The notes beneath the pieces are model-generated. The model worked only from the letters and a program-made list of their open reading frames with translations. It was not told where the DNA came from and did not search any database. From NCBI GenBank assembly GCA_003660555.1, contig QMUK01000057.1, positions 1-8,189 on the forward strand: a stretch of DNA of 8,189 bases, read 5' to 3'. Made by a program: the position numbers and the translations under genes. Below are positions 2,244-8,189 of this stretch, one piece after another; the first letter of the stretch is position 1, and every line of letters begins with the position of its first letter. This stretch comes from Thermococci archaeon (GTDB lineage Archaea > Hadarchaeota > B88-G9).

Positions 2244-2744
2244 ATGAAAGAGAACGTCAGATTCCATCCCAATTCTGAATTTGAGGATGAGTTAGATGAT
2301 CTAATAGAGGAGGTAGAAGACTACAGGAGAGATTTAACTGACGAGTTGATTGAAGTAGCCATGGACAAAATCGGAGAAACATTGGATTGGTCCAAAGCCA
2401 CTCTGATCGTCTACAAATACGTATCCGATGAGAGGATCAGACACTTCGAGAGAATATCCGAGGAGATGCACGAGGAAACCAAGGAACTCTCGGATTTCCT
2501 CAGGAGACACTCACTAGTAGATTCCCTTGTCCCTGGGGAACATCAAGAATTGGAATTGGAAGAATACGAGGAATTAGTCCCCGAGAGATATCTTTTATCC
2601 AAGATTCAGCGAATAGACTCTCTTAAGAGGAAGGTAAAGGAGGAGATGTTCAAGATATCCGCTAGGAGCTTAGGACTAGTGGAGTCCTCTTTGATCCTAT
2701 TGAGACTTTTCCTAGAGGAGCTCCTGAGGAAGATTGGGAGGTGA
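2244..2744 (+). CDS. Acidic helical (coiled-coil-like) protein, unknown function
   Basis: A 166-residue protein with an ATG start at 2244, seven bases after a GGGGG(A) purine-rich ribosome binding site. It is strongly acidic at the N-terminus (residues 12-30, EFEDELDDLIEEVEDY) and almost entirely predicted helix, with heptad-like spacing of Leu and Ile in residues 75-105 and 125-165. There are no cysteines, signal peptide or clear membrane segment, although the last 20 residues (LILLRLFLEELL) are amphipathic and leucine-rich. It is the first gene of a tight operon; its stop codon overlaps the start of the lipoprotein gene, which suggests translational coupling. It may be a scaffold or an antitoxin-like or adaptor partner of the following membrane proteins, but nothing in the sequence proves it. 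I do not recognise the family. Confidence 0.75.
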   Translation: MKENVRFHPNSEFEDELDDLIEEVEDYRRDLTDELIEVAMDKIGETLDWSKATLIVYKYVSDERIRHFERISEEMHEETKELSDFLRRHSLVDSLVPGEHQELELEEYEELVPERYLLSKIQRIDSLKRKVKEEMFKISARSLGLVESSLILLRLFLEELLRKIGR

Positions 2745-3136
2745 TGGAATTGAAGGCCCTCGGCTCTATGCTAATGATTTTCTTAATGCTTACAGCCGGG
2801 TGCATAGAGAAAGGGGCCTCAACTCCGACTTCCAGGAGAGAGATACCAGAGAAGGGAGTGGTCTTCAAAAACGAGGACTTCGTCGTCGTGAAATTCGAGG
2901 AAGAGATTTGCGTAATTCCCTTGGAGAACAGGGAGTTCGTGGTCTTAATCCTCTCTGGAGGAGAAAGCGGGACATTCGAGAGATTGGAATCCAGTGGAGA
3001 AGAGCTTTGCTTTTCTCTAGCTGAAATGGGATATCCTAACTCGATAAGGATAGAGTACGAGGATTGCAAACTCGATCCAATTGAGTTGGAGTGGAGGTGT
3101 AATAGGATCTCGGAGGAGGTTCCCCTTAGGAGGTGA
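2744..3136 (+). CDS. Small lipoprotein with four mature-region cysteines
   Basis: About 130 residues. The N-terminus has a hydrophobic segment (LGSMLMIFLMLTAGC) ending in a lipobox LTAGC, so the Cys at residue 20 is the likely lipidation and anchor site and the protein would face outside the membrane. The start could be GTG 2741, ATG 2744 or TTG 2750: the GGAGGTGAT site at 2738-2746 is best spaced for the TTG, which would give the classic lipoprotein start MKALG. The mature part is beta-rich with cysteines at 56, 89, 108 and 119, which could form two disulfides. No known domain is recognised. The start overlaps the stop of the gene before, and the stop codon at 3134-3136 lies inside the ribosome binding site of the thioredoxin gene, so the two products are probably made together. 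A role as redox partner of that thioredoxin is inference. Confidence 0.75.
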   Translation: MELKALGSMLMIFLMLTAGCIEKGASTPTSRREIPEKGVVFKNEDFVVVKFEEEICVIPLENREFVVLILSGGESGTFERLESSGEELCFSLAEMGYPNSIRIEYEDCKLDPIELEWRCNRISEEVPLRR

Positions 3137-3138
3137 TC
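3129..3138 (+). promoter_or_regulatory. Full-length Shine-Dalgarno site of the thioredoxin gene
   Basis: GGAGGTGATC matches the full archaeal anti-Shine-Dalgarno sequence and lies two bases before the ATG at 3141. It contains the TGA stop of the lipoprotein gene. It decides the thioredoxin start in favour of 3141 over the in-frame upstream ATG at 3081, which is inside the lipoprotein gene. Confidence 0.8.
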
Positions 3139-3140
3139 CC

Positions 3141-3497
3141 ATGGGGGAAATAATAGAATCCAAGGACGATGAGTTCTGGTCCGTTATAAAAAGAAGGAGT
3201 AAGGAGAAACTGATTATAGTTGAGTTCTACAGTCCTAGGTGCTTCCCTTGCAAGATGATGGACCCGGTATTGGAAGAGGTCTCGAAGGAAATGGACGTGA
3301 TAATAGCCAAGCACAACGTCAGGGAGAATTCCAGAATTCCCCTTTCTCTTAAGATAAGGGCAGTTCCAACTTTGATCTTCGTGAAAGACGGAGAAGTCGT
3401 GAAAGTGAAGAGAGGATTCACTAAGAAGGAGAAACTGGAGGAAATGATAGAGGAAATAATGGAAAGTCTCGGAGGGGTGAGGAGAATTGTTGGATGA
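3141..3497 (+). CDS. Thioredoxin-fold protein with atypical CFPC active site
   Basis: A 118-residue protein of the usual thioredoxin length. The family features are in order: a strand IIVEFYSP (residues 25-32), the active site RC-F-P-CK with Cys34 and Cys37, a helix to residue 55, a strand VIIAKHNV, and the cis-proline motif AVPTLIFVKDGE with Pro76. The usual WCGPC is changed: the Trp before the first cysteine is Arg and the Gly is Phe, and the buried Asp of the strand is Glu28. Both cysteines are present, so dithiol-disulfide exchange is expected, but at a shifted redox potential and with different partners from housekeeping thioredoxin. No signal peptide, so the protein is cytoplasmic unless tethered by the neighbouring membrane protein, whose start overlaps its last codons. 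Operon with a cysteine-containing lipoprotein and a small membrane protein suggests a dedicated redox module. Confidence 0.92.
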   Translation: MGEIIESKDDEFWSVIKRRSKEKLIIVEFYSPRCFPCKMMDPVLEEVSKEMDVIIAKHNVRENSRIPLSLKIRAVPTLIFVKDGEVVKVKRGFTKKEKLEEMIEEIMESLGGVRRIVG

Positions 3498-3684
3498 ACA
3501 CAGGGCTCGCTGGAGGGCCTTCAAGAAGGGAATGAGCGTGGCCTTCCTAGGTTTGATAATAGCTATGATTGGGGCGAATACACCCCTGATGTGGATGGGG
3601 TTCCTGATAATGTTCACCAGCCCCTTCGTCACCAAAAAGTCTTTGGAAAAGGAGCTTGGGAGAGTTAAGAGACAAAGGGGTTGA
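3487..3684 (+). CDS. Small two-helix membrane protein
   Basis: A 65-residue protein starting with TTG at 3487 (or the next codon, TTG at 3490) after GGTGAGGAG. The start overlaps the end of the thioredoxin gene by about 11 bases, so translational coupling is likely. Residues 1-14 are basic (RARWRAFKK). Two hydrophobic segments, about residues 17-29 (SVAFLGLIIAMIG) and 33-48 (PLMWMGFLIMFTSPF), are separated by a short turn with GANT, followed by a basic, charged tail. By the positive-inside rule both ends are in the cytoplasm. It has no cysteine and no known motif. It may anchor or assist the thioredoxin or the lipoprotein; this is inferred from gene order only. Confidence 0.75.
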   Translation: MLDEHRARWRAFKKGMSVAFLGLIIAMIGANTPLMWMGFLIMFTSPFVTKKSLEKELGRVKRQRG

Positions 3685-4556: not shown

Positions 4557-4613
4557 CCTCCGAATCACAATTGCGTAGATCCCAGATGGCTTAGTTCCTC
4601 CCTCAGAAGAAAC

Positions 4614-4641
4614 TCTTTTTTATTTTTTATTTATTTATTTC
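4614..4641 (+). terminator. Long T-rich terminator
   Basis: CTCTTTTTTATTTTTTATTTATTTATTT is the longest T-rich run of the window. It lies about 58 bases after the stop of the 4281 gene and marks the end of the plus-strand block. No stable hairpin precedes it, which is normal for archaea. Confidence 0.65.
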
Positions 4642-4650
4642 GTTTTGGAT

Positions 4651-4842
4651 TTAACTCCATGACGCACTTCTAACAGATTCCATCTTACGTACACCTGTAT
4701 TCCAGATCTCTCCTTTTCTAGTGTACTTCAAGGATTCCAGCAAGGACGAGCTCTCGAGTTAGTATCCCCTACCTCTTTCCTTGGATATAGATAGTAATCC
4801 TTTTTTATCTCTTCTACTCGGTAACGCCAGATTCCTCCTCCA
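4651..4842 (-). pseudogene. Coding-like fragment with one internal stop
   Basis: On the minus strand one frame runs from just inside a TATA-like repeat (CTATATATATAG, 4843-4854) to a TAA at 4651-4653, broken only by a TAA at 4759-4761. The downstream 35 codons (LESSSLLESLKYTRKGEIWN and onward) have the amino-acid composition of a real protein end. No start codon with a ribosome binding site is visible. It is best read as a decayed gene, perhaps the continuation of the relic at 4873-5228. No family is recognised. Confidence 0.3.
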
Positions 4843-4854
4843 CTATATATATAG
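4843..4854. promoter_or_regulatory. Palindromic TATA element
   Basis: CTATATATATAG reads the same on both strands and lies in an otherwise gene-poor stretch. It could act as a TATA box in either direction. A second TATA-like block (GGATATAGATAG) and a T6 run occur at 4783-4806. No intact gene is seen at the expected distance on either side, so it may be a leftover promoter. Confidence 0.3.
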
Positions 4855-4872
4855 ATATAGAGGATGCGAACT

Positions 4873-5228
4873 CTAATTCAACTGATCCATTATCTCATCG
4901 ATTTTCTCTATTTCAGCACATTCCTTCTCGACGTATTTCGGGAGTCCCTCCCAAGAATTCCCTTCCAGGTTTACTTCCTAGCATCTTTGCCTAACATCTC
5001 CTGCAGTCCGCCATGCCCACTATATGATTCCAAATCTTGGCATTCCTTTCCCAGTGAGACTAACTCACATAAGATATTTTGATGTTTTGTTGCGTAATCT
5101 CGTTTCGCTCGACTCCGAACTCGAGATTGGCAAGCGGATCGGCAATCTCCCATTCTTCCTCCTTCTGATTTTCCTTCGGTCAGTAGCTGAGCTACCACGA
5201 TGTTACTGCATCTCCAATCCCTAGGCAA
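4873..5228 (-). pseudogene. Decayed protein gene, frame-shifted
   Basis: Three minus-strand pieces in different frames follow each other. The first runs from a TTG at 5228 (PRDWRCSNIVVAQLLTEGKS). The second, 5060-5171, reads EEWEIADPLANLEFGVERNE and continues to a TAG. The third, 4873-4977, has 34 open codons containing LPKYVEKECAEIEKIDEIMD and ends in TAG at 4873-4875; before it this frame has two in-frame stops. Each piece has charged, helix-like composition and codon use like the intact genes, while no single frame spans the region. A GAATAAAAG sequence just upstream (about 5230-5240) may be the old TATA box. No family is recognised. The pieces could instead be chance open frames. Confidence 0.4.
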
Positions 5229-5283
5229 GAGCTCTTTTATTCTCTAGGTCTAAGCCTGCTGATGATAACATGTGTCATTCCGA

Positions 5284-5327
5284 AAACAAATAAAAAATAT
5301 GGTGGGAGCTCACAGAGCTTCTGCTCT
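5284..5327 (-). terminator. Hairpin plus T-tract after the NifX-like gene
   Basis: On the minus strand, 20 bases after the stop codon, AGAGC and GCTCT (5323-5327 and 5314-5318) form a 5-base stem with an AGAA loop. Then, after GTGAGCTCCCACC, comes ATATTTTTTATTTGTTTT (5283-5300). This fits a terminator for the gene at 5347-5814. Confidence 0.5.
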
Positions 5328-5346
5328 CCTCCATCGTTGACGATTC

Positions 5347-6040: not shown

Positions 6041-6457
6041 TCACCTCTTTGATTGAATTATCTCCCTGATCCTTCCCTCGATTTGCCTTCCAATTATTAC
6101 ACATGCGTCTGGAGGAGCCTCTCCTCTGGAAATAGCCACTGCGCATTCATAACAACTTGAATAACCACAGGATCCACAGTTAACCTTTGGGAGGAGCCTA
6201 TATATCTCTTCCACTATCTCAGTAGATTCGGGGGCTCCACGGAACTGACTTGCCCATTTTCCCCTCTCACGTTCTAAGCTAATTCCTCTGTGGATTCCAA
6301 TGGGCCAAAACGATGGATTTATCCATGTACCGCTCCTAATTCCTCTATGGGTTCCCATGGGCCAAAAAGCTGGATTTGTCCATGTACTACTTCCTCGGAA
6401 AGCTCCCTTCTTCCTCCTCCTGCGTCTTCTCCCAGAAGTACTGAATTTTCCGTGCAT
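6041..6457 (-). CDS. Fe-S domain protein with FWP tandem repeat
   Basis: A 138-residue protein from the ATG at 6457. A TATA box 21-30 bases upstream puts the start of transcription at this ATG, so it is probably leaderless; a longer form from GTG 6526 (23 more residues) is possible but would contain the TATA box. The N-terminus has an arginine/lysine tract (residues 10-17). Residues 25-62 are two copies of a 19-residue unit (TNPAFWPMGTHRGIR and INPSFWPIGIHRGIS). Residues 78-130 are a 4Fe-4S domain of the FeS (PF04060) type: helix IVEEIYRLLP, then Cys94-x2-Cys97-x4-Cys102-x16-Cys119 with the typical GSCGYSSC and the AISRGEAPPDAC signature. There is a fifth cysteine, Cys105. That domain occurs in electron-transfer and cofactor-handling proteins such as RnfB and corrinoid/CO dehydrogenase subunits. 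Electron transfer or cluster donation to the NifX-like partner is an inference from gene order. Confidence 0.85.
   Translation of the reverse strand: MHGKFSTSGRRRRRRKKGAFRGSSTWTNPAFWPMGTHRGIRSGTWINPSFWPIGIHRGISLERERGKWASQFRGAPESTEIVEEIYRLLPKVNCGSCGYSSCYECAVAISRGEAPPDACVIIGRQIEGRIREIIQSKR
6281..6394 (-). repeat. Two tandem 57-base units inside the Fe-S protein gene
   Basis: Unit 1 covers 6281-6337 and unit 2 covers 6338-6394. They are in frame and encode 19 residues each with the shared core NPxFWPxGxHRGI. Several differences are at third codon positions, so the duplication is not very recent and the protein motif appears to be kept. Confidence 0.8.
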
Positions 6458-6477
6458 ACGCACAACTAGTTTTATCT

Positions 6478-6487
6478 GGATATAACC
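6478..6487 (-). promoter_or_regulatory. TATA box for the Fe-S protein gene
   Basis: Minus-strand AAAGGGTTATATCC has a purine-rich TFB element followed by a TATA box. Its centre is about 26 bases before the ATG at 6457, the spacing of a leaderless archaeal transcript. It decides the start against the upstream GTG at 6526. Confidence 0.5.
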
Positions 6488-6688
6488 CTTTCCATATCGG
6501 GGGATCTCCACGACTCCAAGATTCACCCCTGATCCAAGCGTTTCTAAGAGTCTGTTTGGAGCTGTATGCGAGATTTCCCTCTTTGTTTATCGAAACAGTT
6601 CTCCTCAAATGCGTATTGAATAGACTTCGAAATTTAGGAGTACATCTCGGAGAGAATTGAGGAAGAGCACCAACTCAGGAGTAGTGCA

Positions 6689-7125: not shown

Positions 7126-7234
7126 TCGCAACACCTCCTGCGTCTATCCCCATATTACAGTGAGAGGGAAAGAGGATTGAAACCCCTGGGGAGGAAGTGG
7201 CTCGTCGAGTTCGGATTGAAAATAGACGAGAAAA

Positions 7235-7244
7235 GATTTAAATC
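7235..7244. promoter_or_regulatory. Palindromic TATA-like element GATTTAAATC
   Basis: This 10-base palindrome preceded by AAAA on the plus strand could serve as a TATA box in either direction. On the plus strand a transcript would start near 7268, just before the hairpin at 7284-7303. It lies within the relic zone, so it may equally be a chance sequence. Confidence 0.2.
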
Positions 7245-7283
7245 GAGGTATTGGTCGACCCAATACGAGAAACACTACACCTC

Positions 7284-7303
7284 AAAGACCTCGGAAGGTC
7301 TTT
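7284..7303. repeat. Perfect 8-base-pair hairpin
   Basis: AAAGACCT at 7284-7291 and AGGTCTTT at 7296-7303 are exact inverted copies around a CGGA loop. A transcript of either strand would form a stable small hairpin. It sits in the relic zone 15-40 bases downstream of a possible promoter and is not followed by a T-tract on the plus strand. Confidence 0.6.
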
Positions 7304-8020
7304 CGCCACGATTTCGACTCTTCATTAATTGTGAGGGTATTCAATGCTGGACGTCGAAGTTCGGTCTGGAAGTTCCTAGAAAAACTGTGCAGACGCCTCG
7401 AGGTTAAGAGGTTCAGTAGTGAAGACAGCATCTGGAACTACTCGAAGTGGTTAGAAGAACAGAGAAGCCGTGAGCCTTTGAATTGTATTTCAGAGATGGA
7501 CTTGAGGAGGCCGAGGAGAACAGCTTTTCGGCTCATCGGTCAGTTGAGAGGGAAGAACAATTCACGTTAAGGAGAAGATAATTTCCGAAATACACCATTT
7601 GAGTCTCTTAGCCAAAAACGATAAACGCTCCGGAGGACTAGTGAAGCTCTTGCGAAAATCCGCATATACTGCACAAGTACCTTGAGTGACAAAATAACTT
7701 AAAGAAAAAGACGTGAGAGATTGATCGAGAGCAAGGAAAGCCATGGAACGAATAATAAAAGGGAAGCTGAGGACTCCCTCAGAGAGATCGGTGGGGAGAA
7801 AGGGGTGTGATGTCAGATCTTCCTTTAGGAGATCCTAGGGGAGAAAGAGTTGACTCGACCATCTTCGGTGATTATTTCGAGATTTGAGTCCATGAAGTGT
7901 CCAGTTGAGCTTTACTCGGATCGGGATTGGATTATCCGTGGACTTCATTTACTGCGCCGCAGAGGAGTTCGAAGAGCTTAAGAAAAAGTAAGCCTAGTCT
8001 AGTGGGATAAGACTAAAGAA

Positions 8021-8032
8021 GGGGATATATTT
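8021..8032 (+). promoter_or_regulatory. TATA box before the partial right-end frame
   Basis: GGGGATATATTT is a good archaeal TATA box with a purine-rich TFB element (AAGAAG) in front. Its centre lies about 26 bases before an ATG at 8053, the leaderless spacing. Confidence 0.45.
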
Positions 8033-8052
8033 GAGCTGACTGATTTCCATAA

Positions 8053-8189
8053 ATGCGTGGGATTTCCGAGGCTAGGAGGAATAAAGTAATAATTGCTAGA
8101 GTGGAGGTCTTGGAGCAACAGCACTGTGTTTAGGATGGTGATGGCTTGATGCTGGATGCCGAAATATCTGAGAAGATTAGAACGATCAA
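8053..8189 (+). pseudogene. Partial reading frame with one in-frame amber codon
   Basis: From the ATG at 8053 the frame reads MRGISEARRNKVIIARVEVL and meets a TAG at 8131-8133. It then continues in the same frame, through DGDGLMLDAEISEKIRTI, to the window edge. Either the gene really starts at ATG 8149 (with GGTGAT eight bases before it), or it is a gene broken by a stop, or the TAG is read through. TAG also ends the gene at 6757, so ordinary termination is the simplest reading. The protein cannot be identified from so short a piece. Confidence 0.3.

Follow-up and report, generated by a model that had tools for sequence, protein, structure and literature searches.

A second, divergent thioredoxin gene packed with three orphan genes in an archaeal draft genome

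The four genes and their contig

The window, that is, the whole stretch of DNA that was analysed, was the entire contig C71 (8189 bases) of an archaeal draft genome (1.295 Mb, 91% complete), the sole member of its own family among the genomes examined. Four open reading frames (ORFs) were found on one strand at 2244-3684, encoding in order an acidic helical protein, a lipoprotein, a thioredoxin and a membrane hairpin (Table 1), with flanking gaps of 106 and 163 nt. All four are real coding sequences. A codon-usage score, for which 158 long ORFs from other contigs of the genome were the training set (training median, 0.251 bits per codon; 99th percentile of shadow frames, 0.023), gave 0.245, 0.21, 0.418 and 0.218 bits per codon in gene order, which is the range typical of real genes, and was negative for the antisense ORFs at 2662-3069 and 3126-3635. 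Rfam gave no match in the window, and the defence and phage libraries gave no relevant match.

Table 1. Coordinates and main evidence for the genes of the four-gene set
Feature	Position	Strand	Evidence
Acidic all-helical protein, 166 aa, no known family	2244..2744	+	Codon score 0.245
Lipoprotein: signal peptide, lipobox LTAGC and mature domain with four Cys	2750..3136	+	Start context; codon score 0.21
Second thioredoxin (118 aa) without signal peptide; active site YSPRCFPCKMM	3141..3497	+	PF00085, E 1.2e-21
Basic membrane protein, 64-65 aa, hydrophobic stretch of about 35 residues	3487..3684	+	Codon score 0.218; hydropathy scan

The helical protein (net charge, -16; 0 Cys) had no significant match in Pfam, NCBIfam, PHROG or PADLOC, and its structure model was helical but poor (pLDDT, 50.7). 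A likeness to truncated haemoglobin (E 0.026) covered 46 residues only and was dismissed as chance. The membrane protein (net charge, +8; 0 Cys) contains a single hydrophobic stretch, which probably forms a two-helix hairpin.

The lipoprotein has 128 aa if it starts at the likely TTG, or 131 aa if at GTG 2741; it carries cysteines at 18, 54, 87, 106 and 117 (128 aa numbering), namely the lipid-anchor cysteine and four others that are spaced 11 to 33 residues apart and form no CxxC. The signal peptide with a lipobox cysteine (MKALGSMLMIFLMLTAGC) predicted from its sequence is that of an archaeal lipoprotein. A single-sequence AlphaFold2 model of low confidence (pLDDT, 71.6; pTM, 0.65) showed eight strands in a beta-sandwich, and fold comparison of this model gave faint indications of an immunoglobulin-like sandwich (best Foldseek E, 7.5e-3; best Z in VIA, 6.9, rmsd, 3.1, 84 residues, which is within the range of common arrangements). 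The likeness to immunoglobulin/fibronectin-like beta-sandwiches such as the DUF3244 structures 3d33 and 3sd2 was weak (Z, 6.2 to 6.6, again in the common-arrangement range; rmsd, 2.8 to 3.1; 77 to 80 residues aligned), whereas the sequence is unrelated to those domains and the four cysteines are its own. By the strand register of the model, the last hairpin brings Cys89 opposite Cys100 (mature-chain numbering), and other strands carry Cys37 and Cys70; Cys89-Cys100 is thus read as a likely disulfide, with Cys37-Cys70 as a likely second one, and the model suggests two structural disulfides as the simplest use of the four cysteines. The lipoprotein stands out in the genome, since the predicted secreted proteins overall are not richer in Cys (1.08% vs 1.05%). 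Another lipobox protein (L060:10510-11145, contig C6) also has four mature Cys; it is unrelated in sequence to the lipoprotein of the window, adjoins no thioredoxin gene and is encoded downstream of genes for proton-pumping NADH dehydrogenase-like subunits.

These results agree with an earlier note on this DNA, which had placed four ORFs here and described, besides an acidic helical protein, a small membrane protein and a lipoprotein with four cysteines (the lipobox and four further Cys were confirmed).

Elsewhere in the window, a secreted and very Cys-rich protein (23 Cys in 214 aa) is encoded on the minus strand at 1-642 and ends at the contig edge. Also on the minus strand, at 6041-6526, is a gene for a protein with an Fe-S domain (PF04060, RnfB-like) and a pair of similar repeats of the STWTNPAFWPMGTHRGI type in its N-terminal part; for a real gene, the codon score is unusually low. 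At 4560-5340 and 7140-8189, long stretches hold neither convincing genes nor Rfam matches, whereas the genome is otherwise dense.

The thioredoxin and the search for relatives

The third gene product belongs with certainty, by its sequence, to the thioredoxin family. The PF00085 match spans residues 4-104, comparison with solved thioredoxins gave an E value of 1.9e-17, and the match to TIGR01068 (TrxA) was 5.4e-24, slightly under the family cut-off. In agreement with these families, the protein matches over its whole length and has a CxxC (CFPC at residues 34-37) followed by Pro, the Val-Pro-Thr cis-proline segment and the size of a cytoplasmic thioredoxin. It departs from the consensus in having Arg-Cys-Phe-Pro-Cys for Trp-Cys-Gly-Pro-Cys, Tyr for the preceding Trp and Glu for the buried Asp, and no reductase gene adjoins it. 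The active-site region is EFYSPRCFPCKMMDP, where nearly all archaeal homologues have DFWAxWCxPC; the typical WCGPC and the buried Asp absent from EFYSPRCFPC are not required for membership in the fold family. The cytoplasmic thioredoxin with a changed active site proposed previously was thereby upheld. CFPC by itself is no rarity, as two archaeal thioredoxins that are otherwise ordinary (L025 and L028) have it as well, and no paper on CFPC thioredoxins of archaea was found in a literature search. In a tree, the window thioredoxin formed a weakly supported branch (90/58) lying outside the remaining archaeal rows.

Contig C66 encodes a standard WCMPC thioredoxin; the gene that immediately follows it (G000:C66:4866-6293) is pyridine-nucleotide-disulfide oxidoreductase-like, and, judging from its sequence, we take it to be that of thioredoxin reductase. 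The window thioredoxin is a second copy, because this standard one sits elsewhere beside the reductase-like gene, and it is probably specialised. Several thioredoxins of distinct function within one archaeon are known (PMC7278568).

The three partners were searched for in 61 relatives, including 27 others from the same phylum, and in further sets of genomes. No credible relative was found of the lipoprotein in about 330 archaeal genomes (the 61 relatives and phyla of 115, 5 and 151 further genomes), none of the helical protein in about 85 (sets of 61, 5 and 23) and no credible one of the membrane protein in the 61, where only weak matches to pieces of hydrophobic ORFs were obtained. Lipoprotein matches at 16-17 bits were rejected, as they were confined to a signal peptide or to short segments of long proteins. 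Genome-contig scans gave no match with the lipoprotein and only scattered bacterial thioredoxins with the thioredoxin; no match came from viral contigs for any of the three orphans, from plasmids for the lipoprotein or from phages for the helical protein. At 29 other archaeal thioredoxin loci, several of which adjoin reductase-like genes, a lipoprotein together with a small membrane protein in comparable positions occurred at none. The three operon partners of the thioredoxin are orphans, in a family from which one genome has been sampled; this absence of relatives is weak evidence, because short, fast-changing proteins of a one-genome lineage easily look like orphans.

Spacing and co-transcription

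The earlier note had assumed that stops and starts overlap at every junction and that the products are hence probably made in fixed proportion. Overlap was found between the thioredoxin and the membrane protein, where the start (TTG 3487 or 3490) precedes the thioredoxin stop (3495-3497); this is the only clear overlap in the set, and the statement in the note was overstated. For the lipoprotein, ribosome-binding spacing is best at TTG 2750, a start served by GGAGGTG at 2737-2743 and lying 5 nt past the helical-protein stop (2742-2744); the alternative starts GTG 2741 and ATG 2744 overlap the upstream gene but fall on the ribosome-binding site itself. The thioredoxin ATG (3141) lies 4 nt past the lipoprotein stop (3134-3136). 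Among 193 same-strand neighbour pairs on 21 contigs of the genome (20 sampled contigs and the window), 41% overlapped and 61% were 10 nt or less apart, with a median of 4 nt. Fixed product proportions do not follow, because equally tight packing is common in the genome and is its norm, and this part of the proposal was abandoned. The tight packing supports co-transcription instead, and the four genes are probably co-transcribed, judging from their spacing.

The same figures bear on whether the genes belong together at all. Four neighbours packed by the compactness of the genome, with no shared function, are a real though lesser possibility: most same-strand pairs in the sampled contigs are as close as these, and the neighbourhood is not conserved across the 29 archaeal thioredoxin loci. 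Against this, four consecutive genes with gaps of more than 100 nt on either side resemble a single unit. Genes of one archaeal transcript are often functionally linked.

Thiol chemistry and the role of the gene set

Known transmembrane thiol routes (DsbD/CcdA and VKOR) use cysteines inside the membrane protein. In principle, the set is like DsbD/CcdA in combining a thioredoxin in the cytoplasm with a membrane protein and a cysteine protein outside, but its membrane protein, with about 35 hydrophobic residues, has none of the redox Cys pair of such a relay (0 Cys in 64 aa), and the family is absent from the genome: no relative of DsbD/CcdA (PF02683) or of VKOR was found in the 91% complete assembly. 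Since both the membrane and the helical protein are free of cysteine, no thiol path leads across the membrane, and a thiol relay through the set is unlikely on sequence grounds. The transmembrane thiol-redox system suggested in the earlier note, in which the thioredoxin would move electrons inside, the hairpin would organise a complex and the lipoprotein would hold redox-active Cys outside, was thus judged very unlikely. The gene set is compact, the lipoprotein and the thioredoxin are its Cys-bearing members, and the missing DsbD/CcdA and VKOR make a replacement conceivable; however, the two Cys-free proteins cannot pass a relay, the thioredoxin has no export signal, the mature lipoprotein Cys are too scattered for a CxxC and no co-occurrence was seen elsewhere. 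Of even lower probability is a membrane-associated redox or surface-protein maturation module of one deep archaeal lineage that would replace the missing DsbD/CcdA and VKOR, the modified thioredoxin serving the hairpin and the disulfide-bearing lipoprotein.

A 599 aa exported protein is encoded on the minus strand of contig C69 (L068:3608-5407), with an N-terminal thioredoxin-like stretch bearing CCKRC and a membrane helix near its end; it is a candidate outside thiol enzyme of this genome without DsbD/CcdA and VKOR.

Handling of a metal or cofactor at the surface, with the four lipoprotein Cys binding a metal ion and the thioredoxin keeping a cytoplasmic partner reduced, was considered unlikely. 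Four Cys could make a metal site, and two genes 2-3 kb off encode an Fe-S protein and a protein with a Nitro_FeMo-Co domain, but these are on the opposite strand, past a stretch without convincing genes, and the lipoprotein Cys are not in CxxC pairs, the hairpin pair being placed as a cross-strand disulfide by the strand register of the model.

The explanation preferred here, at a probability of roughly one half, is a lineage-specific operon with a second, divergent thioredoxin at its centre and no membrane electron transfer through the set. The thioredoxin would be a specialised cytoplasmic dithiol reductant that serves particular client proteins and would be recharged by the thioredoxin reductase of the genome or an equivalent. 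The lipoprotein would be anchored at the outside of the membrane, its four Cys forming two structural disulfides in a small beta-sandwich, and the hairpin together with the acidic helical protein may form a membrane-bound or accessory complex; no electrons would cross the membrane via the four proteins. This explanation is supported by the unrelated lipobox protein L060:10510-11145, whose four mature Cys occur without a thioredoxin neighbour. Points against it are the missing VKOR, given structural disulfides outside the cell, the single sequence behind the lipoprotein model, and a Cys content by which the lipoprotein stands out from the other predicted secreted proteins.

There is no evidence for a redox system, described or new, and more genomes of the family are needed before any system is claimed. 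If the genes work together, a lineage that lacks the usual thiol carriers of the membrane would have a small redox module in them. What is useful for now is the finding of a second, probably specialised thioredoxin in this genome, with three orphan operon partners.
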